A stretch of 64,000 nucleotides of DNA from a bacterium (GTDB taxonomy: Bacteria; CAIWAD01): assembly GCA_030429345.1 (NCBI GenBank), contig JAUIFJ010000013.1, positions 56,466 to 120,465 on the forward strand. The letters are read 5' to 3'. The notes below the pieces were generated by a model, which was given only the letters and a program-made list of their open reading frames with translations, had not been told where the DNA came from and made no database searches. Positions 24,828 through 41,439 of the stretch are shown piece by piece. How positions within the stretch are numbered: position 1 is the first letter of the stretch; every line of letters starts with the position of its first letter. Made by a program: the position numbers and the translations under genes.

Positions 24828-27800
24828 GTGAAACCCATTGCCAACCATAGGCTTTTCCTGGCGTTTCTCATGCTTGCCGGCAGTCTGTCGGCCGCGCCGG
24901 TGGACTCCCTCTACAGTCCGCCGCCGCGGGCGTTGAGCGGGAGCCAGGCGGAGCAGGATCCGGCCTTGTCGCCGGACGGCCGCTACCTGGTCTACAGCCG
25001 CGAGGAGCGCGGCAACCGGGATCTCTGGATGCGGCGGGTCGATTCGGGCGTGCTCGGCGAACTGCCTCAGCGCCTGACCGAGCATGCCGCGCCCGACCTG
25101 CGGCCCCGCTGGTCTCCCGATGGGCGCTGGATCTACTTCCTCAGCATGCGGGACGACGCCGCCGGCGACATCTGGCGTCTGCGACTGCACAGGCGCTGGG
25201 GATCGCTCAAGGCCGGAAAGGCCGAAGCGGTGCTGGTCCGTCCCGGAGCCCAGGACAATCCCTGTCCGCATGCAGACGGCAGCCTCTACTTCGACGAGAC
25301 GGGCCCGGAGGGACCGCGCCTGATGGCTTTCGCCGCCGACAGCCTGCGGCGCATCGCCGAGCCGGCGCGCCTGCCGGTGGCCTGGGGCGACAGCCTGCTC
25401 TACCTGGCGCCCCGCGAGGACGGGCTCAGCGGCCTATACTGGTGGCATAAAGGGGCGAAGGGCGAACTCTGGTCGCCGCCGGGCGGTGTGCTCGAAATGG
25501 CTGCCCTGGGCTCGGAGCGCATCTGGCTCTGCGGCCTGCCCTTCGCCGAGCAGAACCCCGCCGGCCCGACCCTGGTGCAGCAGGCCCTGCGGCGGGCAAC
25601 CGAGTACCGCGGCGAAGCCGGCCTGTGGCTGCTCGACTTCCGCCAGTCGCCGCCGCTCGTCCTCAACCTGCTGCCGCCGGGCCGCGATCCGCGGCAGCTC
25701 AGTCTGGCGCAGACAGCCGACGCGGGCCCTCAGCTTGTGCTGACCGAAGGCCGCGGACGCAGCTCTCTGCGCCTGCAGGCTGCCAGCGGTTCCCTGCGGG
25801 ATTCCCTTGAGGTGCAGGAGTTTCAGCTGCTGCTTGCGGCAGAAGGCGAAAGCCCGCGCCGGGAGTGGCTGCTGGAGCGCATGGCCAGCCAGTTCCCGGC
25901 TACGGTCGAAGGGGAAGAGGCGGCCCTGGCGGCCCTGAGACTGGCCATGCGGCGCCCCCTGCTGCGGGGGGAGGATCTCCTTCATCGCTGTCGGCAGCTG
26001 ATGCGGGAGCTGAGCCAGGGGGACCTGCGTACGCGCGCCTCCTTGCTGCTGCAGGTCCTGCGCCTGCGGGAAGAGGCGGATCCTCTTGCAGGGCAGGAGC
26101 TTGCCTCCGCGCTGGATGCCGAATGCCTCGCTCTGGCCCGGGCGGGACAGACCGGGCCCGCCGCCGAAGGCTGGCTCGAACTGGGGCGCTGGCGGCTCTC
26201 GCGCGGCGAAAGGGCGGCCGCCCTGCGCGTCCTGCAGCAGGTCAGCGAACTCTGCCCCGGCGAGCCGGAGGAAGCGACGGCCTTGCTGCTGCGCCACTGG
26301 GCCTACCGGGAGCAGGGCAGCGCGGAAGCCGCCCGCGGCAGTCTGCGTGAGTTGGCGCAAGGCTTTCCGCAGCAGGCAGACCTGCTGAGTTCCTGGCAGG
26401 AAAGCCTTCGTGCTCAACTGGATGCGCTTCCTGCTTCCGTGGCCTTGGCCCATGTGCGCGACGAGCTGGCCGCGCTGGGAGGAGTGCCTGGAGTCGGCGA
26501 GGCCCTGCAGCTTGAACTGGCAAGGGCGGAAGCGCGCCTCCCTGAGGCCATGGACCTGGCCCTGAGCGACCTGGAGGGCCTGCGCCGCCAGTCGCTGGAA
26601 GGGCAGAGCGCCTTCAGCCGGCAGGTGCTGCTGCAGGCCCGCGAGGCCCGTGCCCGCTGGCTGATGCGCAGCGGCCGCGGCGACGAGGCCCTGCGCGAAC
26701 TGGCCGGGGAGCTGCAGCTCCTGGGCGAGGCGGGCAGGCCCCTGGAGACCCTGCGTCTTTCCCTGCTGATGGAGCGCGCCGGGCGGGCCGCCCGTTCCGG
26801 CGACGCGGCCCTGGCCCTGGCCGACTACCAGCGCGTGTTGGCTTTGGACGGCGAAAACGTGGAAGCCCTTCGCGGCCTGGCGGAGGCCGCGGCGGCCGAA
26901 GGCCGCATCCTGGAAATAGCCGGCCCCTGGCTGGCGCGCGCCGAATCGGACAGCGTGCGGGCCATCGACTACTACGCCGCCGGGCTCTTTCACAGTTGGC
27001 GCGCCGCCGAGGATCCGGCGGCCCTGCCCGAGTCCGACCACTGGCTGGCCCTGGCCCTGGGAGCGGCGCCGGACATGATCCGCGCCTACCAGACCCTGGC
27101 CTGGAACCTGGCCGAGGAGCGGAGGCAGATCCTGCAGCGCAAGACGGGCCTCAAGGGGCTGATCGACGAAGTGGGCCAGGGCAACCGCATCGTGCGCCGC
27201 TGGCTGCGCGACGTGCGCCAGATGGATCCCGAAGAGCTGCTCGACCGCGGCCTGGCCCTGCTGGAGCGGGCCCTGGAACTGGCCGCCGAAGAGGAGCCCG
27301 GCCTGCGGCCCGAACTGTTGCGCAACCTGGGCAACCTGCACTTCACGCGCGGCGAGTTCGGCGCTCCGGCGGCCCGGGAAGCCTGGGACCGGGCGCTGGC
27401 CGAGGGACTCGACTTCCGGAACGAGGCCGATTTACTGGGCTTCCGCCACAAGCAGGGCCTGGTCCTGCAGTGGCTGGGCGAGGAGCAGGCGGCCCGCGAG
27501 GCCCTGCAGGAGGCGGAAAGTCTGGCCGGGCAGTTGGGACGTGGCAGCGAGCAGCGGGAACTGCTGGCGCGCCTGGGCCTGCTGGAAAGCCAGGCCGGCC
27601 GCTTCGCAACGGCTCGCAGCCACTACCAGCGGGCCTTCAGCCTGGAACCGGATCCCGGTCAGCAGGGCATCCTGGCGCGCAACCTGGCCTGGTGCTCCCT
27701 GGAACTGGGCGACACGGAGCAGGCGCGAAGGGACCTGCGCCAAAGCGAGGAGCTGCTGGCCCAGGCCGACTGGCCGCTCCCCGTGCCCTCGAACTGGTTG

Positions 27801-30800
27801 AGGATCCAGCTTTTCGGCCTGCGCGTTCCGCTCTGGAATTTTCCCGGCCTGGGCACCGGCGAAGGCAAGCTGACCTGGAAGCCGCGCGACGAGGAGCTGC
27901 TGCGGGCTTCCCTGCAGGCGCGCATCGAGGAACGCGAAGGGCGAGGCGACCGCGCCCTGGCCAGCCTGCACGAGCGCCGCAAGAGCCTGCGCCGCGCCGG
28001 GGACAGTGTGGGCCGGGTGCAGCTCGACCTGGCGATTGGCGCCTGGCTGGCGCGCAGCGGGCAGCTGGAAGAGGCCGCCGAGCGCTTCCAGGTGGCTCGC
28101 GAAGAGGCCGCCGACGAGCTGCTCGGCATGGGACTGGAAGGACAGGCCGCAGTAGCGGAACTCTCGCTTCGCCTGCTGTCGAAAAATCCGGAAATGGATG
28201 TCCGGAAATGGGATCGCTATCTGAATCTGATCCAGAAGTTCCGAAGCCGCATGGCCGAGGGCGAGAGCCTGCCGCGGCGCACGGCGGTGCAGCTGCAGTG
28301 CCTGCGGGCGGAGGTCCTGCTCGAGCTGGGAGAGCTCAGCCTGCGCGATGGCCTGGTCGGGCCGGTGAGCCTCGACTATCGGGCCCAGGCCATGGCCGTG
28401 CTTGACAGCCTGGCCGCGGGGCAACTGGCTCCGGCCCTGCCCGCTCCCTCGGAGCTCGGGCAGATCGACCTGGGCCGGGCGCGGGTGCACCGCCTGCTCG
28501 GCGAAAGCAAATCCGCGGATCGCCTGGTCGAGGCCCTGCAGGCCGGGCCGGCCCCCGCCGTCGAGGAGCAGCTGGCACTGCTGGACCCCGCCGGCCTCGA
28601 CAGCCTGCGCGCCCGCCTGGCCCGCGAACCGGAACTTTTCCACCAGCAGGACCCGGCCCGCATCGCCCGCATTCGGGGCGCCCTGCGAAACGGCCTGGAT
28701 CTGGCCGAGCAGCAAGGGGATCGCGAGCGCTACCGGCAGCTGATGCACTGGTGGCGCTGGTGGGAAGGCCGCCGCCCCTGGGGAGACCGCAGCCTGCGTT
28801 TGCCCCGCGAAAGCGACACCAACGCCTGGCAGAACCTGCTGGCGGACCTGGAAGAGCTTCGACAAGTGCGAGAAGACAGTCGCCGGGCCGAAGCCGACCT
28901 GGCGCGCAGGCGCGCCGCGGGCGAGCTGCCGGACAGTTCCGTCGCCATCGCCTTGCGGGCCGAGCGTGAGCGGCTGGAGGGCTGGGTGATCCAGGACCGG
29001 GAGCTCTTGCGCAAGGGCGAATCCACGCGCACCCTGATCGAGCCCGGGAATAGACGCCGATCCATTTCCCCGGGAGAGCCCTTGGACCCCCTGTCCATGC
29101 TGTATTTCAACAGCGACGCGTTCTGCCCGGTCGCTCTCTTTGATCCCGCAGAAGTCCCGCCGGCCGCCCACAGGATCTGTCTGCTTTATGGGGATGCCGG
29201 GGTCGGCAAGGAACTGGAGGCCAACCGGGTCACAGGAGGAGATTGGATCAGCTGGATTGGCGAGGGACATCCGGATCCAAGGCTGCGCGTGTTGGGGCCG
29301 GAGGCCATGGGGAGTGCAGATCCCCGTCTCGATGGGCGGGTACTGGTCCTGGAAGCCACGCTGGAACTGGTCTGCGGGGACCCCGCGAGTTCCTGGTTCG
29401 ACTTCGGAGAAGGCAGGCGCCTGGATCTGCGCGATCTGCTGCAGCGGCGCTGGTCCAGCGAAACCCTGGGGATTGCCGGCCTGCGACGGACAGGAGCCTT
29501 GTCCGAAGAAGGTCCGGCCTGGATTTTCCTCGAGTCCGTGCTGGCCAAGGCCGGTTTTCGCCGCTGGTGGTTGCCGGCGGAGAATGTCCGTCTTTCGGGA
29601 GAGAGATTCCTTGCCGCCAGTCTGAAAGAGTTGAAAGGAGGAGTCGATCGCCCCGGAGACTACGTAGGGCTGGAAAGACCGCCGGATCCGGATCTGCAGT
29701 TCACGGAGCTGCAGATCTTCGGTCTTCCGCGGACAACTCCCGAAGAGCGCCTCGAACAGGGCCGGGCCGGCCTCGAGGAGGTGCTGGGCCTGGCCGTTGC
29801 CCAGTACCGTGAAAAGCGCTACGGCCGCGCCTGGGAGCATTTCCGCCGGGCCATCGACCTGGCGCAGAGATTGGGGGAAACGGCGACCGTCGTGCGGCTG
29901 CGCCCCTTGGCGGCGAAGAGCGCCGGCCGTGGAGATGGAGCTTCCGAACGAAGTCGCCATGCCCTTTCCGCCCTGCTGGAGCGTACGGCGCCTCTGCCCG
30001 GCCTGGAGCATGGGGAGGCGGCCTGGCCGCAGGCAGACGCGCCCTACCTGGAAGAGCTGCTGCTGCTCGCCGACCGCGCGGGCCGCAGGGAGGTGGCCCG
30101 GGCCTGCCTCGCCGCCCTGGAAGAGGCCAACCCGCAAGGCATGAAGGCCCTGGGCGATCGTCGCGTCTCGCGGCTGAGCCAGGCCGGCGCGGTGCTCCCG
30201 GCGGCGGCCCTGGCCGAAGAGCTGGAGCTGATGCCGCAGGGCGAGGATCCGCGGCGGGCGCTCTTCCTGGCCAAGACCTACCTGGACGGCGGCAGCCCGG
30301 ATCTGGCCCTGACCGCCTTCCGCGCGCCCGTTGTCGCCTGGCAGGAGCTGCAGCCTCCCGCGCTGCTGGACAAGCTGGAGCTGGAAGCTGTCGCCGCCAT
30401 GCGCCTGGGGCAGCTGTCCCTGGCCCGCCGGGGCCTTGAGCAGGCGGGAGAGCTGGCCGCCGGCATGCGTCCCGACAGCGCCCGCCAGGCCCTGTCCGGC
30501 CTGCGCCGCGCCGACCTGGCCTGGCAGGAAGGCCTGGCCAGCGGCGCTTTCCGTGAACTGGACGCTGTGCGCTCCCTGCTGCCCGCGAACCGTCCCGAGC
30601 TGCGGCTGCTCTGGGAAAACACCTCCGGCCTCGTGCGGCAGAGCCTGGGCGAGGGACCGGCGGCGCTGGCCCATTTCCGTCGTGCCCTTGCCGAAGCCCA
30701 GGGCCTGGGGGATGCGCGGGAAGAGAGCGCCGTGCGCAACAACCTGGCGCGCAGCCTGCTCGCGGAAGGGCATAGCGACATGGCCCTGCAGGAACTGCAG

Positions 30801-32576
30801 CTGGCCCGTGCCGCCGAGCAGCGGGCCGGCCTCTCCGGGGTGGTCACGCGGCGCAACCTGGCCGAGGCCTGGCTCTCGCTGCCTGGGCGCGAAGCCCTGC
30901 GCCGGGCGCGAGAGCACCTGGACGAGGCGCGACTGCGGGCCGCCAAGGAGGCTTTGCGCCTGGAAGAGTTGCGCCTTTCGCTGCTGGCAAGCCGCCTGGA
31001 ACGCCTCTCGGGGAATCCGGAGGCGGCCCGCGGGCATGCCGAATCGGCCCTGGCCCTGGCGCGGAAACTGGAGTGGCGCGAAGGGCTCTGGAAGAGCCAT
31101 CTGCAGCTGGGTCTGGCCCTGGAAGAGGCACAGCAGCCCCTGGCCGCTCGCGAGCAGCTGGACCGCGCGGCCGCCGCCCTGGAAGAGCTGCGCCAGGCGC
31201 AGGCCGGCAGCCGCTTCCGCAGCGGCGTGCAAAGTGCCCAGGCAGAACTGGTCGAGTCGCGGCTGAGGCTGGCGCTTCAGGCGAGGGAGCCGGAAGAGGC
31301 CCTGGTGCTGGCCGATCGCAGCCACGCCGTGGGCTTCGAGGACCTGCTGGCCTGGCGCGAACGAGGGAAGGAGCAGGATGCGGCCCTGCGCAGCCGCAGC
31401 GACAGCCTGCAGCTGGAATTCTCCCTGGCGAGGCAGGCCCTCGAGCGCGGGCGCGGCGGAAGCCGGAACGAGGAGCAGCGCCTGGCCCGCCTGCGCGCGG
31501 AACTGGAAGCCAGCCGTCTGGCCCTGCAAGCCGCGGAGCAAGGGCGCATGCCTGAACAGCCCGCGCGCACGGCCCCCCTTCTGCCCCGCTTGCGCGCCGC
31601 CCTGGGGCCACGCCAGGCCATTGTGTTCTACCAGCTGGGGCCGCGGGAAGGGCAGCTCTTCTGGCTGCGCGGCGACAGCCTGGGGCATCGCCGCCTGGAA
31701 CTGGCGCCGGACTCCCTGGCCCGCCTGGCCGAGCGGCACCGCACCCGGACCCTGCAGCTGCTGAGCACCGAAGGCAGCGCGCGCCAGTTGGCCCAGGTGC
31801 TGATCGATCCTCTGCTGGAGCAGCTGGAGGGAGTCGACGAGCTGATCCTGGTTCCCCATGGCGCCCTGCATCGCCTGCCCTTCGCCTCCCTGGAGCTCGA
31901 GCAGGGCCTGCTGATCGATCGCTTCGCCCTCAGCCAGCAGCCCAGCCTGGCCTTCTGGCTGCGCAGCCGCGAGCAGCAAGCGGTCGAAGGGCCTGGACGC
32001 GCCTGGTGCAACCCTCCTGGGGCGGAGCTGGATTTCGCCGTGCTCGAGTGCCAGGCGGCCCGCGCCAGCTGGCCCGGCCTGCGCATCCTGCAGGACGATG
32101 CGGCCAGCCGCAAGGCCGTTCTCGAGGACAGTGTCGCACGGGCGATCCGCCATTTCAGCTGCCATGGCCTGCATGACCCGCAAAGTCCTGCCGCTTCCGG
32201 CCTGCTGCTGGGAGAAGGCGAAGAGGTGCGGCTGCTCGACGCGACGACCATCAGCGCCCTCGAGCTGCCGACGGAACTGGTGGCCTTGAGCGCCTGTGAC
32301 ACGGGGCTCGGCCGCACCGTCTCAGGCGACGAGGTGGCCGGCCTGCCCCGCGCCTTTGCCCTGGCCGGTGCGCGCAGCGTCTTCAGCAGCCTCTGGAAAG
32401 TCGACGACCTGTCGACCGCGGTGCTGGTCAAGCACTTCTACCGCAACCTGGCCGCCGGCCAGTCCCGCGCCGAGGCCCTGCGCCAGGCCCAGCGCACGGT
32501 CCGCGACGAACTGAATCCGCACCCTGTCTACTGGGCCGCCTTCACGCTCTGCGGTGTCACGGATTCAATGCCTTAG
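24828..32576 (+). CDS. Giant exported TolB-like/TPR/CHAT caspase-like protein
   Basis: 2582 aa from GTG 24828, which gives a signal peptide ending near LSAAP; the open frame upstream is repeat. Residues ~40-150 carry PD40/TolB-like propeller motifs (LSPDGRYLVYS, WSPDGRWIYFLS). Residues ~350-1250 and ~1640-2180 are helical, Leu/Ala/Glu-rich TPR arrays. Residues ~1425-1630 look like a second, degenerate CHAT domain. Residues ~2260-2575 are an intact CHAT (separase/caspase-like) protease with His2446 in HFSCHG and Cys2490 in LSACDTG, then GLPRAFALAGARSVFSSLW. CHAT proteases are regulated cysteine peptidases; export of one is unusual. Substrate and trigger unknown. Confidence 0.88.
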   Translation: MKPIANHRLFLAFLMLAGSLSAAPVDSLYSPPPRALSGSQAEQDPALSPDGRYLVYSREERGNRDLWMRRVDSGVLGELPQRLTEHAAPDLRPRWSPDGRWIYFLSMRDDAAGDIWRLRLHRRWGSLKAGKAEAVLVRPGAQDNPCPHADGSLYFDETGPEGPRLMAFAADSLRRIAEPARLPVAWGDSLLYLAPREDGLSGLYWWHKGAKGELWSPPGGVLEMAALGSERIWLCGLPFAEQNPAGPTLVQQALRRATEYRGEAGLWLLDFRQSPPLVLNLLPPGRDPRQLSLAQTADAGPQLVLTEGRGRSSLRLQAASGSLRDSLEVQEFQLLLAAEGESPRREWLLERMASQFPATVEGEEAALAALRLAMRRPLLRGEDLLHRCRQLMRELSQGDLRTRASLLLQVLRLREEADPLAGQELASALDAECLALARAGQTGPAAEGWLELGRWRLSRGERAAALRVLQQVSELCPGEPEEATALLLRHWAYREQGSAEAARGSLRELAQGFPQQADLLSSWQESLRAQLDALPASVALAHVRDELAALGGVPGVGEALQLELARAEARLPEAMDLALSDLEGLRRQSLEGQSAFSRQVLLQAREARARWLMRSGRGDEALRELAGELQLLGEAGRPLETLRLSLLMERAGRAARSGDAALALADYQRVLALDGENVEALRGLAEAAAAEGRILEIAGPWLARAESDSVRAIDYYAAGLFHSWRAAEDPAALPESDHWLALALGAAPDMIRAYQTLAWNLAEERRQILQRKTGLKGLIDEVGQGNRIVRRWLRDVRQMDPEELLDRGLALLERALELAAEEEPGLRPELLRNLGNLHFTRGEFGAPAAREAWDRALAEGLDFRNEADLLGFRHKQGLVLQWLGEEQAAREALQEAESLAGQLGRGSEQRELLARLGLLESQAGRFATARSHYQRAFSLEPDPGQQGILARNLAWCSLELGDTEQARRDLRQSEELLAQADWPLPVPSNWLRIQLFGLRVPLWNFPGLGTGEGKLTWKPRDEELLRASLQARIEEREGRGDRALASLHERRKSLRRAGDSVGRVQLDLAIGAWLARSGQLEEAAERFQVAREEAADELLGMGLEGQAAVAELSLRLLSKNPEMDVRKWDRYLNLIQKFRSRMAEGESLPRRTAVQLQCLRAEVLLELGELSLRDGLVGPVSLDYRAQAMAVLDSLAAGQLAPALPAPSELGQIDLGRARVHRLLGESKSADRLVEALQAGPAPAVEEQLALLDPAGLDSLRARLAREPELFHQQDPARIARIRGALRNGLDLAEQQGDRERYRQLMHWWRWWEGRRPWGDRSLRLPRESDTNAWQNLLADLEELRQVREDSRRAEADLARRRAAGELPDSSVAIALRAERERLEGWVIQDRELLRKGESTRTLIEPGNRRRSISPGEPLDPLSMLYFNSDAFCPVALFDPAEVPPAAHRICLLYGDAGVGKELEANRVTGGDWISWIGEGHPDPRLRVLGPEAMGSADPRLDGRVLVLEATLELVCGDPASSWFDFGEGRRLDLRDLLQRRWSSETLGIAGLRRTGALSEEGPAWIFLESVLAKAGFRRWWLPAENVRLSGERFLAASLKELKGGVDRPGDYVGLERPPDPDLQFTELQIFGLPRTTPEERLEQGRAGLEEVLGLAVAQYREKRYGRAWEHFRRAIDLAQRLGETATVVRLRPLAAKSAGRGDGASERSRHALSALLERTAPLPGLEHGEAAWPQADAPYLEELLLLADRAGRREVARACLAALEEANPQGMKALGDRRVSRLSQAGAVLPAAALAEELELMPQGEDPRRALFLAKTYLDGGSPDLALTAFRAPVVAWQELQPPALLDKLELEAVAAMRLGQLSLARRGLEQAGELAAGMRPDSARQALSGLRRADLAWQEGLASGAFRELDAVRSLLPANRPELRLLWENTSGLVRQSLGEGPAALAHFRRALAEAQGLGDAREESAVRNNLARSLLAEGHSDMALQELQLARAAEQRAGLSGVVTRRNLAEAWLSLPGREALRRAREHLDEARLRAAKEALRLEELRLSLLASRLERLSGNPEAARGHAESALALARKLEWREGLWKSHLQLGLALEEAQQPLAAREQLDRAAAALEELRQAQAGSRFRSGVQSAQAELVESRLRLALQAREPEEALVLADRSHAVGFEDLLAWRERGKEQDAALRSRSDSLQLEFSLARQALERGRGGSRNEEQRLARLRAELEASRLALQAAEQGRMPEQPARTAPLLPRLRAALGPRQAIVFYQLGPREGQLFWLRGDSLGHRRLELAPDSLARLAERHRTRTLQLLSTEGSARQLAQVLIDPLLEQLEGVDELILVPHGALHRLPFASLELEQGLLIDRFALSQQPSLAFWLRSREQQAVEGPGRAWCNPPGAELDFAVLECQAARASWPGLRILQDDAASRKAVLEDSVARAIRHFSCHGLHDPQSPAASGLLLGEGEEVRLLDATTISALELPTELVALSACDTGLGRTVSGDEVAGLPRAFALAGARSVFSSLWKVDDLSTAVLVKHFYRNLAAGQSRAEALRQAQRTVRDELNPHPVYWAAFTLCGVTDSMP

Positions 32577-32752: not shown

Positions 32753-33610
32753 ATGCCCACGCCGATTGCTTTTCTGTCGATGGAGGACACGAAGGACTTC
32801 GTGATCTATGACCACCTGGCTGTGCCGGCGCTGGAGCGGGCGGGCTTCGAGGTCGAGACGGTGCCCTGGACGGTCGAGAGGGACTGGAGCCGCTACGCGG
32901 CCGTCGTGATCCGCAGCCCCTGGGACTACATGAACCAGTCGGAGCGCTTCCTGCAGGTGCTCGAGGAGATCGATCGTCACACGCAGCTGCTCAACGGCTT
33001 CGCGACCGTGCGCTGGAACATCGACAAGGGCTACCTGGCCGAGCTGGGGGGCAAGGGACTGCCTGTGGTCGAGACCACCCTGGGACGCGGCGGCGGTCCG
33101 GGGGAGCAGGCGCTGTGGCGCAATGTGAGCCGCGACCGGCCCTGCGTGCTCAAGCCGCGCATCGGCGCCGGGGGCTTCGACACCTATGTATTGCGCGACG
33201 GATCCTTTCCCCGCGAGGCGGGAAAGGCCTTTGTCGACCGCGACTGGCTGCTGCAGCCGTTCCTGGACGCCGTGCAGGAGGACGGGGAGTATTCCCTCTT
33301 CTTTTTCGGCGGCGTATACAGCCACGCCGTGCGCAAGGTCCCGCGCAAGGGCGAATTCCGCAGCCAGGAGGAATACGGCAGCGCCCTTTCCGCTGTCACA
33401 CCGCGGGCCGACATGCTGGATGCGGCGAAGCAGGTCCTGGACGCCTTGCCGGAGGCGGTTTTCCAGGCCCGCGTCGACCTGGTTCGTGCCGCCGATGACC
33501 GCCCCCTGCTGATGGAGCTGGAACTGATCGAACCCTCGCTCTACTTCCCCTACGACGAGACCTCGCCCGGGAACTTCGCCCGGGCCTTGAAGAGATGGTT
33601 GGGGGTGTAG
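32753..33610 (+). CDS. ATP-grasp enzyme (RimK/glutathione-synthetase/DcsG-like)
   Basis: A 285-aa cytoplasmic protein of the ATP-grasp superfamily, which joins a carboxylate to an amine via an acyl phosphate. Seen are an N-terminal Rossmann-like part (VVIRSPWDYMNQSERFLQVLE), the nucleotide-binding strand CVLKPRIGAGGFDTY, QPFLDAVQEDGEYSLFFFGGVYSHAV in the central grasp, and the Mg-binding end LMELELIEPSLYF. The length and the WDY segment resemble the DcsG/YheC-like group rather than RimK. ATG preceded by AAAGGAGAACAC. Stand-alone gene between repeat blocks; substrate unknown. Confidence 0.8.
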   Translation: MPTPIAFLSMEDTKDFVIYDHLAVPALERAGFEVETVPWTVERDWSRYAAVVIRSPWDYMNQSERFLQVLEEIDRHTQLLNGFATVRWNIDKGYLAELGGKGLPVVETTLGRGGGPGEQALWRNVSRDRPCVLKPRIGAGGFDTYVLRDGSFPREAGKAFVDRDWLLQPFLDAVQEDGEYSLFFFGGVYSHAVRKVPRKGEFRSQEEYGSALSAVTPRADMLDAAKQVLDALPEAVFQARVDLVRAADDRPLLMELELIEPSLYFPYDETSPGNFARALKRWLGV

Positions 33611-33613
33611 GAT

Positions 33614-33903
33614 TGCAGGTGAAACCTGCAGGTTTTATTGGTCGGCCGTTGCACGGCCGGTGGATCGAAAGAGGCGGCATGCGGACTGTTCCAATCAATC
33701 AGCCCTGCAAGGGCTGACCAAAAAGAGCTGCAGGTGCAACCTGCAGATTCTGGTTATTGGTCGGCCGTTGCACGGCCGTTGAATTGAAAGTGGCGGCGTG
33801 CCGTCCGATTTAAATGAATCAGCCCTGCAAGGGCTGACCAAAAGAGCTGCAGGTGCAACCTGCAGATTCTGTGATGGTGCAACCTGCAGATTCTGTGAGG
33901 GTG
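33614..33903. repeat. Direct repeats each carrying three palindromes
   Basis: Two units (33614-33720 and 33728-33840) and a partial third from 33847. Each contains three short palindromes in order: TGCAGGT...ACCTGCA (33614-33630, 33728-33746, 33847-33865), CGGCCGTTGCACGGCCG, and CAGCCCTGCAAGGGCTG. The third unit breaks down into repeats of GGTGCAACCTGCAGATTCTGTG. They fill most of the 454-bp gap between the ATP-grasp gene and the next cassette; I see no gene in that gap. Confidence 0.88.
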
Positions 33904-34021
33904 TCCACTGCAGATTCGGAGTTCGATTTCCTTGCCGTGCAATATTCGGCAAGTCGTTCCGTTTCAGCATCACGACAGCGGATCTCCCGAAGGGGAGTTC
34001 CGCGGGCGGGGAGCCGATAAA

Positions 34022-34039
34022 CGGACGCGGGAGCGTCCG
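34022..34039. other. Small hairpin upstream of the exported barrel-like gene
   Basis: CGGACGC (34022-34028) and GCGTCCG (34033-34039) with loop GGGA, 25 bp before the ATG at 34065. Could affect translation or be a remnant of a repeat. Confidence 0.5.
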
Positions 34040-34064
34040 GCGAGCCTTCAACGATCGCGTCTAC

Positions 34065-34928
34065 ATGAAACCACTCTTAGGCCAGCTGGCCGCCTTGATC
34101 CTGCTGATGGCTGTAACCAGCCCGGCGTGTGCCGCGCTCACCCAGGGAACCTACACCTGGTGGAGCCTGCTGGCCGGCGCCGAACTGAACCAGGCCCTCG
34201 ACAACGACCCCTATTCCTTCCAGGATGCGGAAACGCGCACGGCAAGCCTGTACCTGTCGGGCGGCAAGGGAGCGCGCTGGGGGATCCTCGCTTTCAACGA
34301 CATGCGCCTCAGCCAGGACTGGTGGACCTTCCGCGGCCGGCGCGGCATGCTGCGGCTGCGCGAGGAAAGCGCGACGGGGCTGGCCCGCGGCCTGTGGGCC
34401 TTCTACAGCCAGGGCAGCCAGGACTGGGAGGGTCGCGGCCTGGGGCTGGAACTGGATGCGCCGCCCCTGGGCGCCTTCCGCAATGGCTTCGAACTGTCCT
34501 GGACCCGGCACGCCTGGCTCAACGAACAGGGCGTCCTGCCCGTGCAGGAGGACCAGCAGTCGGTGCGAGTCGGATTGTTCCTGACCCGGCAGACGGAGAA
34601 AAGCCGCCTTCGCCTGGCCGGATTCCGGCAGACCCTGGACGGGAAGACCGAAAGCGCCTGGCAGCTGCGGGCCGGTCGGCGCTTCGGCCGCACCGGGATC
34701 ACGGCGACATTGTTCCACGGACGACAGAGCCTGTGGCTCGATGCCGAAAGCCTGGTGCTGCACGACGGCAGCAGCCCGCTGGAAGGAGCGGCCTCCCTGT
34801 CCCTGCAGCGGCCCCTCAGCGGCAGTCTCACCCTGAGGCTGGGCGCGGGCTGGACCGGCTCGATGGATCACGAGAATCGCTGGCTCTTCCTGGGACTTGC
34901 CTGGAAGACGGCCTACTGGACTTTGTAG
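34065..34928 (+). CDS. Exported beta-barrel-like protein of unknown function
   Basis: 287 aa with a signal peptide ending near SPACAA (about residue 24). The remainder is alternating polar/hydrophobic strands with many Trp, Tyr and Arg (TWWSLLAGAELNQAL, DWWTFRGRRGMLRLREE, WRTL-like ends), and it ends WLFLGLAWKTAYWTL. The strand pattern suggests a 10-14-strand outer-membrane barrel, but no family is recognised. The upstream open frame consists of repeat-derived sequence. It is the first gene of the PqqD/ATP-grasp/decarboxylase cassette, 57 bp ahead of the next gene, so it may be an export or uptake component for that pathway (inference). Confidence 0.7.
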   Translation: MKPLLGQLAALILLMAVTSPACAALTQGTYTWWSLLAGAELNQALDNDPYSFQDAETRTASLYLSGGKGARWGILAFNDMRLSQDWWTFRGRRGMLRLREESATGLARGLWAFYSQGSQDWEGRGLGLELDAPPLGAFRNGFELSWTRHAWLNEQGVLPVQEDQQSVRVGLFLTRQTEKSRLRLAGFRQTLDGKTESAWQLRAGRRFGRTGITATLFHGRQSLWLDAESLVLHDGSSPLEGAASLSLQRPLSGSLTLRLGAGWTGSMDHENRWLFLGLAWKTAYWTL

Positions 34929-34985
34929 GACAAAAGACCCCATTGGATGGCGACGGCCGGTAGCGGCCGGAAAAAGGAGAACGGG

Positions 34986-35396
34986 ATGAAACGGATCCTA
35001 AACGCCCTGGCCCTGCTGCTGTTTTCGCTGCAGGTCCTGCAGGCCCACGAACTGAGCCTGCGCATGGAGTTCGAGAAGGGGCAGCCTCATCGCATCGTGA
35101 TCCAGGCCGACCTGGAGGCGGAGGCCTGGCTGGGACTGTCCTGGTACCCTTATGGTGTCACAGACGCCTATGCCGAGGGCGAGCACCAGGTGATCCGCCT
35201 GTCGCCAGGCGAGAACGAGCAGATCTTCCGCGTGCCCGCGCGCATGCTCGGCGGTTCCGTCGAGTGCGCGCTCTGGAAGGTGCGTGTTACAAGGGAGGAA
35301 TGCCCCACCCAGTGCCAGTGGTGCACGGACAACGGCTTCCACCTGGAAAAGCAGCAGGGCTACCTCTACGGAAGCCTGGCGAAGGAGGCGGAATGA
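34986..35396 (+). CDS. Small exported cysteine-containing protein, cassette member
   Basis: 136 aa. A signal peptide ends near VLQAH (residue ~20), leaving a ~115-residue mature protein: a beta-rich front (HELSLRMEFEKG, HRIVIQADLEAEAWLGLSW) and a C-terminal cysteine cluster, C-x13-C-x3-C-x2-C, including CPTQCQWC. These could form disulfides or bind a metal. No known family recognised. ATG at 34986 with AAAAAGGAGAACGGG upstream. Its stop overlaps the PqqD-like start by 4 nt (ATGA), so its dose is tied to the enzymes. It is a plausible target or carrier of the modification made by the downstream genes; that is inference. Confidence 0.72.
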   Translation: MKRILNALALLLFSLQVLQAHELSLRMEFEKGQPHRIVIQADLEAEAWLGLSWYPYGVTDAYAEGEHQVIRLSPGENEQIFRVPARMLGGSVECALWKVRVTREECPTQCQWCTDNGFHLEKQQGYLYGSLAKEAE

Positions 35397-35650
35397 ATCC
35401 CCAGAGTCACCTGCAGCTGAGCCCCGAAGGCTTCCTCTTCGACCACTACTCGGGCGCCAGCTTCACGCTCAACCGGAGCGGCGTGCGCATTCTCGAGCTG
35501 CTCATCGAGGGACTGGATCGCGAGAGCATCCTGCAGCGCCTGGAAACCACCTGGCCCGAGGCCGGCCGCGAACGCCTGGCCGGGGACCTGGACGGCTTCC
35601 TGGCAAGGCTGGAAAGCCATCGCCTGCTGCGCGCCGGGGAGGCCTCGTGA
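35393..35650 (+). CDS. PqqD-like RiPP recognition element protein
   Basis: An 85-aa winged-helix PqqD-family protein. It shows the family pattern of a short beta hairpin (LSPEGFLFDHYSGASFTLN), SGVRILELLIEGLDRESILQRL, then an acidic helix before DLDGFLARLESHRLL. PqqD-like domains bind leader regions of peptides (RiPP recognition element) and present them to modifying enzymes; some serve as carrier-protein-like chaperones. ATG at 35393 overlaps the upstream stop, and its own stop overlaps the ATP-grasp GTG (GTGA). No dedicated short precursor peptide is visible nearby, so the substrate may be the exported 136-aa protein or be encoded elsewhere. Confidence 0.8.
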   Translation: MNPQSHLQLSPEGFLFDHYSGASFTLNRSGVRILELLIEGLDRESILQRLETTWPEAGRERLAGDLDGFLARLESHRLLRAGEAS

Positions 35651-36762
35651 ACGCGCCCCTGCCCCTGGACTGGAAGCGCGCGGCGATCGCCGTCAGCGGG
35701 CTCAACAGCGCCGACAACCCGGCCCCCGGAGTGCCGGTGGCGCGCAGCCTGCGCGAAGCGGGACACACGGGTCCATTGGTCGGCCTGGCCTACGACAGCC
35801 TGGACAGCGGCATCTACCGCGAAGGGCTCTTCGACCATGTATACATGATGCCCTTTCCGAGCAGCGGCGCCGAAGCCGTGCTGCAGCGCCTGCTGCGCAT
35901 CCGCGACGAGACGGGCCTGCAGGCGGTGATGCCGGCCCTGGACAGCGAAATGGACCTCTACGCCTCGCTGGAGGAGGTGCTGGAACGCGAAGGCATCCGC
36001 AGCCACCTGCCCCGCGCCGACAGCCTGGAGCTGCGCAGCAAGGCCCGCCTGGCGAGCTTCTGCGAGCAGCAGCGGATCCTGGTGCCGCCGACCCGTTCCG
36101 TATACGACCTGGCCGGACTGGAGAAGGCCTGGAAGGAGCTGGCGGACCCGACGGGCCAGCAGCCCGTATACATCAAGGGCCAGTACTACGAGGCCGAGAA
36201 GGCGAGGACGATCGAAGAGGCGCGCGCCTCCTTCCGGTCGATCAGCCGGCGCTGGGGCCTGCCCATCGTGATGCAGCGCGGCCTGCCGGGACACGAGCTC
36301 AACATCTGCTGCCTGGGCGACGGCATGGGCGGCCTGGTGGGAGCGGTGGCGATGCGCAAGCTGGCCCTGACCGCCAAGGGCAAGGCCTGGGCCGGTGTGA
36401 CCGTCGGCGAGCCGCTGCTCTACGACTTCGCCCGCCGCGTGATCCACGCCTTGCGCTGGCGCGGTCCCTGCGAGCTCGAAGTGCTGCGCCACGAGCACAC
36501 GGACCAGCTGCACCTGATCGAGATCAATCCCCGCTTTCCCGCCTGGTGCTCGCTCTGCGCGGGCGCCGGGGTCAACCTTCCCGCGGCCCATGCCTCGCTG
36601 GTCCTGGGCCAGGATCCGGGTGACCTGCCCGCCGCGAAGAGCGGCGTGATCTATACCCGCCTCAGCATCGACCAGGTCTGCGACCTGTCTACGCTGCAGG
36701 CCCTGAACACTGCCGGACAGATCCACTTTCCGCCGGCCCAGCCTCAAGGAGACCCGCGATGA
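35647..36762 (+). CDS. ATP-grasp ligase, carbamoyl-phosphate-synthase-like
   Basis: 371 aa from GTG 35647. An N-terminal pre-ATP-grasp Rossmann domain (AIAVSGLNS...VPVARSLREAGH) is followed by the lid and nucleotide-binding regions (RSKARLASFCEQQRILVPPTRSVYD, VYIKGQYYEAEKA) and the metal-binding end HLIEINPRFPAWCSLCAGAG. This layout matches the carbamoyl-phosphate-synthase/biotin-carboxylase-like branch that acts as amino-acid or peptide ligases. Together with PqqD upstream and a PLP decarboxylase downstream (4-nt overlap), it suggests ATP-dependent addition of an amino acid or amine to a peptide or protein. The actual substrate is unknown. Confidence 0.82.
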   Translation: MNAPLPLDWKRAAIAVSGLNSADNPAPGVPVARSLREAGHTGPLVGLAYDSLDSGIYREGLFDHVYMMPFPSSGAEAVLQRLLRIRDETGLQAVMPALDSEMDLYASLEEVLEREGIRSHLPRADSLELRSKARLASFCEQQRILVPPTRSVYDLAGLEKAWKELADPTGQQPVYIKGQYYEAEKARTIEEARASFRSISRRWGLPIVMQRGLPGHELNICCLGDGMGGLVGAVAMRKLALTAKGKAWAGVTVGEPLLYDFARRVIHALRWRGPCELEVLRHEHTDQLHLIEINPRFPAWCSLCAGAGVNLPAAHASLVLGQDPGDLPAAKSGVIYTRLSIDQVCDLSTLQALNTAGQIHFPPAQPQGDPR

Positions 36763-38159
36763 GCGCCGAGCCCTACGAGACCCCGACCATTGTGAGACAA
36801 CAGGCCGGCAGCAGCAATGTCTTCGGCAGCACGCCGAAGGAGAGCTTTCGCGCCCACGTGGCCGGCCTGCCCGTCGAGGAGCTGGTCGAGCGCTTCGGCA
36901 GCCCGCTCTTCGTGCTCTCCGAATCCGCGATCCGCGAGAAGGTGCGCGAGTTCCGCATGGCCTTCGAGTCGCGTTATCCCCGCGTGCACCTGGGCTGGTC
37001 CTACAAGACGCACTACCTGGCCGCCGTCTGCCAGGTGATGCACCAGGAAGGCAGCTGGGCCGAAGTGGTCAGCGGCCTGGAGTTCCGCCTGGCGCGGCAG
37101 CTCGGCGTGCCCGCGGACCGCATCGTGATCAACGGGCCGGACAAGGACGAGCAGACCCTGCGCGCGGCCATTGCCGGCGGCTCGAGAATCCACATCGACA
37201 ACCAGGAAGAGATCGCAAGACTGGAGCAGCTGGCCCGCGAGGCAGGCTTCGGCGGCGGCAAGCGCTTTCCCGTCGCGATCCGCGTCAACATGCAGCTCGA
37301 CGCCCAGCACTGGGACCGCTTCGGCTTCAACCTGGAAAGCGGCCGGGCCCACCAGGTGGCGCGTCGTGTACACGAAAGCGACAGCCTCTGCCTCAAGGGC
37401 CTGCACTGCCACATCGGCACCTATGTAGACAATGTGGACATGTACCGCCGCGCGGCGGCCCGCCTGGTCGAATTCGCCGTCTGGATCCGCAAGGAGCTGG
37501 GCACCGGCCTGGACTGGTGGGACATGGGAGGCGGCTTTGCCACGCGCAACACGCTGCACTGGGCCTACCAGAACGCGGACGTGACCTGTCCCGGGCTCAA
37601 CCGCTATGCCGAAGCGATCTGCGGCGAACTGCGCCAGCTGCCGCTGGAGAACGGGGAAGAGCTGCCCGAGCTCTTCTTCGAGTCCGGTCGCGCGCTGGTG
37701 GACGAATGCCAGGACGCCATCGTCACGGTGGTCAGCGAGCGCCGGCTGGGCAGCGGGGAGCGGGCCCTGGTGCTCAACGCGGGAGTCAACCTGCTGTCGA
37801 GCACCACCTGGTACCGCTACGAGGTCGCGCCCGCCCGTGATCCGGGAGCGACGGTGCTCGAGCAGACCACCCTGCTGGGCAATCTCTGCATGCAGATCGA
37901 TGTCCTGCGCAGGGAAGTTCCCCTGCCCCCGCTGGTACGCGGCGATCATCTGGTGATCCGCAATGTGGGCGCCTACAACCTGAGCCAGAGCACTCAGTTC
38001 ATTCATGGCCGTCCGGCCGTGGTGCTGGTCGACGGCCAGGGGCAGCCGCATGTGGTACGCGAAGCCGAGGACGTGGAGGCCTTCCGCGGCCAGGACCGCC
38101 TGCCGCAGCACCTGCTCAGCGATGCCGGAAGTGATGCGGTGGAACGGTTCCGGGAATAG
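36759..38159 (+). CDS. Fold-type III PLP decarboxylase (LysA-like family)
   Basis: A 466-aa PLP enzyme of the diaminopimelate/ornithine decarboxylase type: TIM-barrel domain with PLP Lys83 in WSYKTHYLA, GPDKDE, LKGLHCHIGTYVDNVD, the glycine-rich DMGGGF, FESGRALV (a variant of the usual EPGR), then the C-terminal domain with Cys377 in GNLCMQID and NVGAYNLSQSTQF. The C-terminal Cys-x-x-x-Asp arrangement corresponds to the active-site Cys of the partner subunit in LysA. The EPGR to ESGR change and its place in the cassette argue against plain lysine synthesis. It may supply a decarboxylated amino acid, or decarboxylate a coupled product (inference). Confidence 0.85.
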   Translation: MSAEPYETPTIVRQQAGSSNVFGSTPKESFRAHVAGLPVEELVERFGSPLFVLSESAIREKVREFRMAFESRYPRVHLGWSYKTHYLAAVCQVMHQEGSWAEVVSGLEFRLARQLGVPADRIVINGPDKDEQTLRAAIAGGSRIHIDNQEEIARLEQLAREAGFGGGKRFPVAIRVNMQLDAQHWDRFGFNLESGRAHQVARRVHESDSLCLKGLHCHIGTYVDNVDMYRRAAARLVEFAVWIRKELGTGLDWWDMGGGFATRNTLHWAYQNADVTCPGLNRYAEAICGELRQLPLENGEELPELFFESGRALVDECQDAIVTVVSERRLGSGERALVLNAGVNLLSSTTWYRYEVAPARDPGATVLEQTTLLGNLCMQIDVLRREVPLPPLVRGDHLVIRNVGAYNLSQSTQFIHGRPAVVLVDGQGQPHVVREAEDVEAFRGQDRLPQHLLSDAGSDAVERFRE

Positions 38160-38291: not shown

Positions 38292-40490
38292 GTGATCCAG
38301 AAAAGCGTGGACCGCCTGCTGACGGCGGCGGGAGTGGTGCTCTTCACGGGGAGCCGGGGAAGCGGGATTCTTTTCCTGCTGGCCTTGCTGCTGGATCCCT
38401 GGCGCCTGGGCCTCGCGCTGGCCGGCGCCGTCTGCGGCATGGGAGTCGGCGCGCTGATGGCCCGCGAAAGGGTCTGGCAGGAGATCGGCTTTTTCGGCGG
38501 ATCGGGCATGCTCAGCGCCCTGGCGCTGGCTGCCTACCTGGAACCGGCGCCCCAGCTGCTGCTGCTGGCTCCGCTGACAGCAGCCCTCTCGGCCCTGATC
38601 CTGCTGGCACTGGTTCCCCTGCTGGCGCCGAAGGACCTGCCCTTGCTGGCCCTGCCCTTCGTGCTCGCCGCCCTGCTGGCCCTGGGGGCCGCGCCGGCCT
38701 TCGGGCTGGAGCAGAGCCATCTGCACGGTGCGCGTTTCTGGCTGCTGCCGCAGCTGGGCGAGTTCAACACCTGGATGTCACACAGCCTGCCCCTGCCCTT
38801 CGCCGATGGCCTGTCCGCCTTCGGCAGCCTGCTTTTCTTTCCCGCGCCTCTCGCCGGCCTGCTGGTGCTGGGCGGTCTCATCATCGGAAGCCGGATCACG
38901 GCCCTGGCGATGCTTGCCGGCAGCCTGCTGAGCACGGGCCTGCTGCGCCTGCTGGTGGACGGCCCGATGAACGCCCAGCAGACCAGCCTGCTGGCTTTCA
39001 ATGGCCTGCTGCTGGCCGCGGCCTTCTGCGGGATCTTCGTTGCCCTGACCCGGCAGGCGCTTGTCTACGGGGTCGCGGCCCTGCTGAGCGGCATCCTGGT
39101 GACGGCGACCCTGGATCACTTGCTGACTCCTTTCGGCCTGCCCGTGCTCGCCCTGCCTTTCTGCCTGGTGACGCTGGGCTTCCTGTTGCCGCTGAAGAGC
39201 GCCAGCGCGGCCCTGGAACGATGGAGAATCTGGGCGCCGCCCCTGCGGCTGATCGGCCGGGCCGAGGACAACCTGCGCGCCTTCGGCCGCTGGCAGCGGC
39301 AGCAGGATCGCCCGGAGCCCGTGCTGACCATGCCCCTGCACGGCACCTGGACCGTGACACAGGGACCGCATGGGCCCTTGACGCACAACACGGAAACCGG
39401 CCGCCACGCCTGGGACTTCATGCTGCTCGACACGGCGGGACGCGGCGCGGGCGGACTGGGCAACACGCCGGAGGACTTCTTCGGTTTCGGCTGCCCGGTG
39501 CTCGCTCCGGCGGAAGGCCAGGTGATTGCCGTGGAGGGGCAACACGCCGACAATCCGGTGCACACGGCGAACACGGACCACCCCTGGGGCAACTGGATGA
39601 TGATCCGCCACGCCTCCGGAACGGTCAGCCTGCTGGCGCACCTGCGCGCCGGCAGCCTGCGCGCGCTGCCGGGCCAGCATGTGCTCCGCGGGCAGGAAGT
39701 GGCCCAGCTGGGCAACACGGGCCGCAGCCCGGAGCCGCACCTGCACCTGCAGCTCAACGACGGGCCCTGGCTGGCCTCGCACAGCCTGCCGGCGGTCTAC
39801 GGCAGCTGGCTCTCGCTGAAGGATCCCGCCGCGCCCGTCTTCCATCCGGTGGGCCGTCCGCAGGAAGGCGATCGCGTCTGCACCCTGACGCACATGCACT
39901 GGCCCGACTGGAGCGCCTGCCACCCCTATTCGGTGCCCGGTCGCGTTTTCCGCTACCGGCGGGAAGGGCGCGGCGCGGCCCGCGAGATCGAGCTGCGTGT
40001 CACGGCGGGCCACTGGGGCCGCCTGCTGCTGGACGACGGCCTGCAGCGGGCCCTGGTGCTCTACTGGCCGGGCTGGATCCAGCTGCTGCCGCTGGAGGAC
40101 GGGGACCCGGACGCCTGTGTGCTCTACGCCGAGGACAGCCTGGTCCAGCAGCTGCTGCTGCACCTGCCGGCCCTGCCGCTGATCGGGGTCGACGGCCTGC
40201 GCGTCGTCGACGATGTATACAGCCCCGGCCTGGCCGGGCGCGTCAAGAAGGCCTTCCGCCTGGAGGGGCGCGCCTCGCTGGCTCTCGCATTCCGCCGCAA
40301 GGAGGCAGCGGCACCCTTGTATTTCAACAGCCGGCTTTCCGCCGATGGAACACAAGTGCGTTTCGCGGAAGGACGGATGGAAGACCTGAAAGGCCTCTGC
40401 CTCTTCCAGACCGGAGAAGACCGCAAAGGACTTCGCTGGACCCTGCTGGAGGACCAGGCTGCATTTCATTCAAGGTCGCTGGCGACCTAA
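38292..40490 (+). CDS. Urea-transporter-like membrane protein fused to M23 peptidase domain
   Basis: 732 aa. Residues ~1-300 hold about 9-10 hydrophobic helices arranged as two related halves, with SGILFLLALLLDPWRLGLALAGAVCG and AFNGLLLAAAFCG plus GLPVLALPFCL, the pattern of the urea transporter family. Residues ~340-520 are an M23/LytM-like domain with candidate zinc ligands H372/D375 (GRHAWDFML) and HLHLQL (H483, H485), plus GNWMMIRHASG. The first ligand motif is one residue shorter than the usual HxxxD. UT-M23 fusions exist in other bacteria. The start is GTG 38292 (AAGGATTCGAT upstream); the ATG two bases earlier is out of frame. Transported solute unproven. Confidence 0.78.
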   Translation: MIQKSVDRLLTAAGVVLFTGSRGSGILFLLALLLDPWRLGLALAGAVCGMGVGALMARERVWQEIGFFGGSGMLSALALAAYLEPAPQLLLLAPLTAALSALILLALVPLLAPKDLPLLALPFVLAALLALGAAPAFGLEQSHLHGARFWLLPQLGEFNTWMSHSLPLPFADGLSAFGSLLFFPAPLAGLLVLGGLIIGSRITALAMLAGSLLSTGLLRLLVDGPMNAQQTSLLAFNGLLLAAAFCGIFVALTRQALVYGVAALLSGILVTATLDHLLTPFGLPVLALPFCLVTLGFLLPLKSASAALERWRIWAPPLRLIGRAEDNLRAFGRWQRQQDRPEPVLTMPLHGTWTVTQGPHGPLTHNTETGRHAWDFMLLDTAGRGAGGLGNTPEDFFGFGCPVLAPAEGQVIAVEGQHADNPVHTANTDHPWGNWMMIRHASGTVSLLAHLRAGSLRALPGQHVLRGQEVAQLGNTGRSPEPHLHLQLNDGPWLASHSLPAVYGSWLSLKDPAAPVFHPVGRPQEGDRVCTLTHMHWPDWSACHPYSVPGRVFRYRREGRGAAREIELRVTAGHWGRLLLDDGLQRALVLYWPGWIQLLPLEDGDPDACVLYAEDSLVQQLLLHLPALPLIGVDGLRVVDDVYSPGLAGRVKKAFRLEGRASLALAFRRKEAAAPLYFNSRLSADGTQVRFAEGRMEDLKGLCLFQTGEDRKGLRWTLLEDQAAFHSRSLAT

Positions 40491-40503: not shown

Positions 40504-41439
40504 ATGGTACCGAGGATCATCATCGCGCTGCTCTTCAGCGCAGGGTTTGCTGTGGCGCAGGTCAACCTGCGCTGGACCGTCGACCAGGGCAGCACCGAAA
40601 CGGGCTGGCTCTGGGAAGACCTCAACGGGGATGGCCTGGCCGAGCTGATCAAGGAGGACGGCCTGGGAACGTCCTTCCTCGACGGGGACAACGACTATGC
40701 CAGCCTGTGGACAGTCGTCGATCCGGAGCCGGAGGACGACAGCTGGTTCTCCCTGGCCCATCGCGAGGGCAGCCTGGTGGTCTTCACGCGCGTCAATTCG
40801 ACCAGCCAGACCAGCCAGATTCTCGTCTACAATCTGTACGGCAGCCAGCCGCTCTGGACCTCGACGACCCTGGCGGGCGTGCTCTACCGGGTCAGCCTGG
40901 GGGAGTTCAGCGGCAGCGGGAACACGGAAGTCGCCGCCGCCTGGAACCGCCTCGACACGGTCTACCTGAGCGCCTTCGGCAGCTGGCGTCTTTCCAATGG
41001 AGCTGTCACACACGCCCCCGTGGAGGCCATCGGCTACCTGGCGGGTCCCTGGGGCGGAGCGGTGGAGAATGCATCGGAGGACCTGCTCTTCTGCAACCGC
41101 TACCTCTCCGACGGCAGCGCGATCCTCGAGTGCTACGGCCCGGCCAACAGCGCCGTCGGCGATCCGGGCCCCGCGCGACCGGAGCGGATGGAACTCGCGG
41201 TGCGGCCGAACCCTTTCAACCCGAGCTGCCGCATTCGTCTCACGGCCGTGCCGCGGACGCCGATCAGCGTACGCGTACACGATCTGCGCGGCGCCCTGCG
41301 CAGGCAGTGGCAGCTGCCGGCAGGATACAGCGGAGAACTTCTCTGGGACGGGCGCGACCAGCAGGGCCGCGCCCTGGCCAGCGGCGTCTACGTGGTCGAC
41401 ATTCCAGGCGGACAGCAGCTGGTCACGCTAAGGAAATAG
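40504..41439 (+). CDS. Secreted protein with FlgD/T9SS-like sorting tail
   Basis: 311 aa: a signal peptide ending near AVAQV, a beta-rich body (~20-215) with an FG-GAP/VCBS-like Asp-rich start (LNGDGLAELIKEDG), then a C-terminal sorting-type domain from ~230 (RPNPFNPSCRIRL, VHDLRGALRRQW, WDGRDQQGRALASGVYVVD). The tail matches FlgD-Ig-like / type A secretion tails of FCB bacteria, which direct export to the surface. Function of the body unknown. ATG at 40504 with AGCAGGAGAATC upstream, 13 bp after the transporter gene, so probably co-transcribed with it. Confidence 0.8.
   Translation: MVPRIIIALLFSAGFAVAQVNLRWTVDQGSTETGWLWEDLNGDGLAELIKEDGLGTSFLDGDNDYASLWTVVDPEPEDDSWFSLAHREGSLVVFTRVNSTSQTSQILVYNLYGSQPLWTSTTLAGVLYRVSLGEFSGSGNTEVAAAWNRLDTVYLSAFGSWRLSNGAVTHAPVEAIGYLAGPWGGAVENASEDLLFCNRYLSDGSAILECYGPANSAVGDPGPARPERMELAVRPNPFNPSCRIRLTAVPRTPISVRVHDLRGALRRQWQLPAGYSGELLWDGRDQQGRALASGVYVVDIPGGQQLVTLRK

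Follow-up and report, generated by a model that had tools for sequence, protein, structure and literature searches.

In butirosin biosynthesis, the ATP-grasp ligase BtrJ works in turn with the fold-III pyridoxal 5'-phosphate (PLP) decarboxylase BtrK on a carrier-attached amino acid. BtrK decarboxylates that amino acid on the carrier BtrI, and it shares an enzyme clade with SbnH, AcsE, MccE and the N-citrylornithine decarboxylase FigC/FslC, in which conjugated or carrier-bound amino acids are the substrates (PMC7857480). A YxxP-type motif is the published ligand of the PqqD-like recognition elements of lasso and LPP pathways, and in LppB Asn-33 fixes the kink at the proline of this motif and Asp-70 hydrogen-bonds its tyrosine, mutation of either residue weakening complex formation or nearly abolishing it (PMC13381572). 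RRE-Finder has located discrete recognition elements that are not encoded together with known machinery (PMC7470986). Here we analyze a 64,000-nucleotide stretch of bacterial DNA (contig JAUIFJ010000013.1; hereafter the window) in which one operon encodes a PqqD-like protein, a carbamoyl-phosphate-synthase-like ATP-grasp ligase, a PLP decarboxylase, and a membrane domain of the urea-transporter (UT) fold fused to an M23 zinc-peptidase domain. Computational comparison shows that this operon is conserved and that its genes co-occur exclusively, that the decarboxylase carries an N-terminal tail with a YxxP-type motif, that the PqqD-like protein retains the residues by which such motifs are recognized, and that the active site of the decarboxylase is not that of LysA. 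A literature search whose scope did not extend to most subscription journals yielded no paper in which these parts are combined.

From these findings we infer a physical docking, a reaction order, a chemistry with its substrate and product, and a direction of transport. The PqqD-like protein would be an adaptor that holds the decarboxylase by its disordered N-terminal tail, rather than the chaperone of a separate precursor, and would most likely present the decarboxylase to the ATP-grasp ligase. The ligase would join an amide to an amino acid, and the decarboxylase would then strip the alpha-carboxylate from the conjugated amino acid, much as N-citrylornithine or the glutamate on BtrI is decarboxylated. 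From there the product would exit via the UT-fold channel bearing the M23 domain, and subsequently by way of periplasmic and outer-membrane partners that differ between lineages. We rate it an even chance that an adaptor-organized ligase/decarboxylase pair makes one conserved amide-type metabolite that is subsequently exported. That the recognition element clamps a leader-like enzyme tail in a system with no precursor, with the ligase and decarboxylase forming a complex or using the tail as a carrier, and that a fixed metabolite is passed to an envelope-spanning UT-fold/M23 exporter, is a proposal we advance tentatively, as somewhat short of an even bet. If true, a recognition-element system would have been kept across bacterial phyla to serve a fixed function and not diversifying chemical warfare; it would account for many orphan PqqD genes (a single scan gave at least 521 ATP-grasp relatives), and would indicate that Myxococcota, Bacteroidota/Ignavibacteria, Cloacimonadota, and others have a widely conserved metabolite together with a route for its export. 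Genome mining for ribosomally synthesized and post-translationally modified peptides (RiPPs) presumes that a recognition element signals a nearby precursor, whereas the alternative ligand proposed here is the tail of an enzyme from the same operon.

Conservation of the four-gene core

The conserved core consists of the PqqD-like protein (85 residues; 35393-35650; Pfam PqqD, 1.2e-9), the ATP-grasp ligase (371 residues, GTG start; 35647-36762; ATPgrasp_Ter, 3.8e-10), the fold-III PLP decarboxylase (466 residues; 36759-38159; Orn_Arg_deC_N, 1.1e-31), and the UT/M23 fusion (38292-40490; Pfam UT, 3.9e-44, and Peptidase_M23, 1.9e-14), all encoded on the forward strand. An initial annotation of the window had described five same-strand genes, namely those for two exported proteins followed by the first three core genes, with the last four overlapping by 4 nucleotides each. 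Its coordinates and the three overlaps (ATGA, GTGA, and ATGA) prove exact, its PqqD, ATP-grasp and PLP-decarboxylase family calls agree with Pfam, and the ESGR sequence that it reported is present at residues 308-311 of the decarboxylase. The cassette is, as it proposed, a real functional unit, but one that continues past 38159 on the same strand: the overlooked fourth core gene, encoding the UT/M23 fusion, follows after a gap of 132 bp, and a gene for a protein with a FlgD-like tail after a further 13 bp, both being conserved along with the operon.

The relatives recovered at first came from the window's own family and two distant genomes. When GTDB genomes were then scanned with an alignment of the ATP-grasp ligase, at least 521 relatives emerged, from which 80 loci were retained. 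More than ten phyla are represented in these loci, which come from Myxococcota, other 'Deltaproteobacteria', Cloacimonadota, Ignavibacteria, other Bacteroidota, Calditrichota, Gemmatimonadota, Acidobacteriota, Planctomycetota, Armatimonadota, Neomarinimicrobiota, and Proteobacteria including Thiomargarita. Because the ATP-grasp gene alone served as bait, the neighbor counts are a fair test: the decarboxylase gene lies beside it in 74 of 74 loci, the PqqD gene adjoins it in 76 of the 79 with enough sequence, and the UT/M23 gene is downstream in 67 of 68. In the three loci with a non-adjacent PqqD gene, this gene is found further upstream (L027) or elsewhere in the genome (L023 and L054), and in L023 it adjoins a relative of the 136-residue exported protein considered below. 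Dozens of distant genomes share this gene order, far above chance, and although many of the records are metagenome bins it is also seen in isolates (Larkinella) and in a one-contig genome (L017). Moreover, when 119 genomes from a single class are surveyed, the genes for the ATP-grasp ligase, the PqqD-like protein, the tailed decarboxylase, and the full UT/M23 fusion all occur in an identical set of 20. Independent occurrence of these genes in other genomes, the finding that the initial annotation had named beforehand as fatal to a system interpretation, is seen neither in this set nor in the adjacency counts.

The plasmid collection gave a single ATP-grasp match, at 32% identity, from Streptomyces and with the operon absent. 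In this Streptomyces zaomyceticus plasmid (L107) the matching ATP-grasp domain lies inside a 758-residue hypothetical protein with no annotated PqqD or decarboxylase neighbors.

The recognition element and the decarboxylase tail

The PqqD-like protein scores 38.8 bits against PF05402 (cut-off 23.4), covering positions 3-67 of the 67 in the model, and the best solved relatives of its profile are the lasso-type proteins TbiB1 (1.1e-11) and TfuB1 (4.2e-10), followed by PbaB1 and LppB. Alignment of hidden Markov models (HMMs) places a family asparagine (43 of 44 sequences) at LppB Asn-33 and an aspartate (44 of 44) at Asp-70, with a spacing of 37 in both; in the window the predicted YxxP-gripping residues are Asn-27 (35471-35473) and Asp-65 (35585-35587). 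These relatives and conserved residues are in keeping with the view of the initial annotation that the protein is a peptide-recognition element. It resembles lasso B1 proteins and LppB in fold, family, closest solved structures, and the gripping Asn/Asp pair (PMC13381572), but here an enzyme encoded in the operon, not a short precursor, bears the ligand motif, and neither a B2 protease nor an asparagine-synthetase-like cyclase is found among the conserved neighbors, as a lasso cluster would have. The protein is also similar to the HPr-rel-A PqqD family (TIGR04353), for which its score of 34.9 bits falls next to the cut-off of 35; no HPr-kinase-related gene was noticed beside the operon, though no systematic search for one was made.

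In all 63 aligned decarboxylases the first 25 or so residues form a tail, which in the window contains YETPTIVRQQAGSSNVFGS within a leader-like segment (residues 3-24; 36765-36830) where the PqqD-like protein is predicted to dock. The first block of the tail, [YW]xxPx[ILVM], is present in every sequence, with tyrosine in 62 (tryptophan once), proline in all 63, and an aliphatic residue two positions later. The second block, N-K-[FY]-[GSA], retains Asn-20 and Lys-21 in 61 of 63 sequences each, the lysine being replaced by valine in the window and by glycine in L050, both of which are loci of the exported-protein subtype. In an AlphaFold2 model of the decarboxylase, the predicted local distance difference test (pLDDT) score of the tail is 48-61, while that of the body is mostly above 90 (overall 91.5); given its conserved motif, the tail therefore appears to be conserved yet unstructured. 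Solved structures of diaminopimelate decarboxylase (DAPDC) and FigC mostly align only from about residue 29, and matches to other LysA-type proteins in the genome survey begin at profile position 26-37, the tail being absent. In addition, the pattern [YW]xxPx[LVIFA] occurs within the first 25 residues of only 7 of 757 other called genes, and in each of 10 genomes searched, the tail profile (E <= 0.1) matches exactly once, at the decarboxylase. L023 and L054, which have no PqqD gene nearby, still encode one elsewhere, which we count in favor of docking. The motif, the conserved Asn/Asp pair, the lasso-type relatives, and the single copy per genome are the reasons for which we take the tail to be the likely ligand of the PqqD-like protein, an assignment that these sequence comparisons support well. 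The initial annotation had remarked on the lack of an obvious short precursor, and indeed no separate one was matched by the tail profile in these 10 genomes; with the tail as the PqqD client, however, the likely answer to the absent precursor would lie within the decarboxylase itself.

Two observations tell against docking as a complete account: the tail profile has no match among PDB chains, and the conserved NKFG block is outside the usual recognition footprint, so that docking alone leaves it unexplained. The tail sequences also have no match in NCBIfam. The near-invariance of the NK residues favors a second role for the tail, perhaps that of carrier or substrate, in which case an amino acid would be attached to it by the ATP-grasp ligase (the NKFG lysine being one possible site), trimmed in cis by the decarboxylase, and released by the M23 domain. 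Borosins, which are enzyme-fused precursors, offer together with BtrI/BtrK a precedent in spirit for such a scheme, which would also give the M23 peptidase of the core, with its intact catalytic residues, a task. It would likewise fit the retention of Asn-20 and Lys-21 despite their position beyond the LppB contact region, and the action of BtrK, from the same enzyme clade, on a carrier-tethered glutamate (PMC7857480). Nevertheless, we consider it unlikely that the tail is loaded in this way. The otherwise intact operon of the window has valine at the lysine position, which weakens the case for Lys-21 as an obligatory acceptor, and L050 has glycine; every residue of the second block varies in at least one sequence; and each product would tie up one enzyme molecule unless released.

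Less probable again, and in our estimate distinctly so, is a RiPP pathway with an unrecognized precursor encoded elsewhere in the genome, for which the tail would be a mimic or regulator. Short precursors are the normal clients of lasso-type recognition elements and small genes are easily overlooked, but the tail profile matches the decarboxylase alone in each of the 10 genomes, revealing no separate short precursor with a leader and core, although a quite different leader would escape this profile. Moreover, the decarboxylase pocket is invariant across 63 sequences from many phyla, unlike those of diversifying RiPP enzymes.

The initial annotation had instead suggested that the PqqD-like protein presents the 136-residue exported protein (34986-35396) for modification, the gene for which adjoins the PqqD gene with a 4-nucleotide overlap. 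This now seems highly improbable. The co-occurrence that it called for is confined to a minority of loci, homologues being matched in only 11 non-duplicate ones, and the protein is not found where tetratricopeptide repeat (TPR) and barrel partners take its place. YxxP is missing from the window copy and from 10 of 12 family segments scanned, and the protein has a signal peptide, whereas PqqD is cytoplasmic.

The decarboxylase and the ATP-grasp ligase

The closest structural match to the decarboxylase is N-citrylornithine decarboxylase (7kh2; Z 47.6, rmsd 2.0 over 400 residues), and HMM comparison gives 334 bits to this structure versus 242 for the best DAPDC. Every NCBIfam match of the window protein is under its cut-off, including the top match, to the FslC/FigC model NF041039 (220.8 bits, cut-off 500), and that to lysA TIGR01048 (210.7 bits, cut-off 297.9; relatives 213-248). 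Ornithine, arginine, and DAP decarboxylases have an acidic residue after the catalytic cysteine, and in DAPDC a residue of the Arg-343 type serves the distal carboxylate (PMC7857480). The residue after the cysteine is methionine in all 63 decarboxylases aligned here, as in FigC, and the Arg-343 position is occupied by threonine or serine in 62 (asparagine once). The FigC citrate contacts His-357 and Arg-387, on the other hand, are replaced by Ile-380 and Gln-410, each in 63 of 63 sequences, within an invariant pocket composed of C-M-x-I-D, Trp-351/Tyr-352, and Gln-410. Judged from these alignments, the enzyme is not LysA, in line with the expectation of the initial annotation, but a protein that resembles N-citrylornithine decarboxylase and has a distinctive, invariant pocket. 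Because the methionine and Thr/Ser positions are FigC-like while the citrate contacts are replaced, its substrate is probably a conjugated but non-citryl amino acid, which would be the same across phyla. The enzyme thus has FigC/FslC (7kh2; PMC7857480) as its closest relative in structure and sequence, shares with it the methionine beside the catalytic cysteine and the Thr/Ser in place of the DAPDC arginine, and differs from it in the citrate contacts, the leader-like tail, and its partner, which is an ATP-grasp ligase rather than an NIS (nonribosomal peptide synthetase-independent siderophore) synthetase.

That the PLP enzyme is an ordinary DAPDC of a lysine operon, with incidental neighbors, an outcome that the initial annotation had likewise named as fatal to a system interpretation, is the least probable of the alternatives and can be given very little weight: the fold and family likeness, and the want of a separate LysA above the curated cut-off in the window's genome and in 9 of the 20 operon genomes (G001-G003, G011, G062, G091, G093, G168, and G175), are set against scores of 210-248 bits, under the cut-off, in every genome tested, the presence in the other 11 of a distinct LysA that scores 465-518 bits, the Arg-343 and post-cysteine substitutions, and strict linkage to the other three core genes.

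Invariant residues of the ATP-grasp ligase among 69 relatives include Glu-276, Glu-278, Glu-292, Asn-294, and Arg-296, which we take to be the expected metal site. Its PDB relatives are the carbamoyl-phosphate synthase large chain and PurD, the kinship to solved enzymes being only distant, and by analogy with the chemistry of the family it would supply the amide. As in butirosin biosynthesis, an ATP-grasp enzyme is paired with a fold-III decarboxylase; in contrast to that pathway, the operon has no acyl carrier protein, and its recognition element and UT/M23 fusion lack a butirosin counterpart.

The UT/M23 fusion and its envelope partners

The UT domain scores 151 bits against PF03253 (cut-off 25) and 200 bits against the urea transporter dvUT (3me1/3k3f), with which it shares the membrane fold, and the zinc and catalytic residues of the M23 domain (PF01551), His-365, Asp-375, His-450, His-483, and His-485, are invariant. 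Together with the genes for TPR and barrel-type exported proteins that follow the UT/M23 gene in 51 of 62 loci, these features back the proposed export of the product. The fusion differs from dvUT in its attached peptidase and in the residues Gln-24, Thr-130, Glu-187, and Thr-294 of dvUT, which we take to be those of the urea slot. Among 59 sequences, Gln-24 is kept in 32, Thr-130 in 9 (mostly replaced by serine), and Thr-294 in one, and glutamate is not among the six commonest residues at the Glu-187 position. Urea is therefore an unlikely substrate, since the polar residues of the slot are largely lost. Several points, however, weigh against export through this protein. With its selectivity residues mostly gone, the UT domain may be no channel at all. 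Positive charge after the last UT helix points to a cytoplasmic M23 domain, whereas free-standing relatives of this M23 type carry export signals, the opposite indication, so that the membrane side of the domain is ambiguous when read from sequence. In addition, one locus, L016, has no UT/M23 gene.

In genomes without the operon, the extended M23 domain of the fusion recurs in free-standing exported proteins (L120-L123; 330-348 residues), one of which is an apparent lipoprotein.

Envelope partners of the core are usual but vary by lineage, the window belonging to a minority subtype. Loci with the 136-residue protein have no TPR/barrel partners downstream; those of the window's family instead encode an upstream barrel protein and a downstream FlgD-tail protein. 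The exported, outer-membrane beta-barrel-like protein of the window (287 residues; 34065-34928, forward strand) is an accessory with no Pfam match. Homologues that are 28-31% identical lie upstream of the same operon in L013-L015, and this type of barrel protein is confined to the window's own family. Two-component genes near L013-L017 were considered as core members and rejected because their presence is inconsistent, the downstream cluster being of the TPR/barrel kind. The secreted FlgD-tail protein (40504-41439, forward strand), likewise an accessory, has a C-terminus resembling FlgD-Ig and sorting tails, although FlgD_ig is below its cut-off; a counterpart that is 36-39% identical is encoded near the UT gene in L013-L015, and its N-terminal domain is common to L032 and L039.

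The 136-residue protein, an accessory of one architectural subtype encoded on the forward strand, is confidently modeled by AlphaFold2 as a beta-sandwich (pLDDT 88.8). Its cysteines are Cys-94, Cys-106, Cys-110, and Cys-113, giving C-x11-C-x3-C-x2-C, with the last three forming a C-terminal cluster; the C-x3-C-x2-C part of the cluster reported initially stands, the C-x13 spacing does not, and Cys-94 is not kept in relatives. Fold searches returned only generic immunoglobulin/fibronectin type III-like sandwiches (Z <= 9.4), Foldseek gave no match at E <= 0.001, and no specific PDB family was identified. In L031 and L054, this exported beta-sandwich family is present as tandem domains in one longer protein, with a Cys cluster in each.

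Upstream of the operon, a second ATP-grasp-type gene (32753-33610), a relative of the D-cycloserine synthetase DcsG (181 bits, cut-off 360), was rejected as a member of the system because relatives of the operon have no convincing adjacent counterpart. It is preceded by a gene for a 2613-residue protein (24735-32576) with a beta-propeller-like start, a long TPR-like middle, and a CHAT-protease-like C-terminus. The intergenic segment upstream of the barrel gene (33650-34060) contains short direct repeats, which are visible as repeated motifs in overlapping frames.

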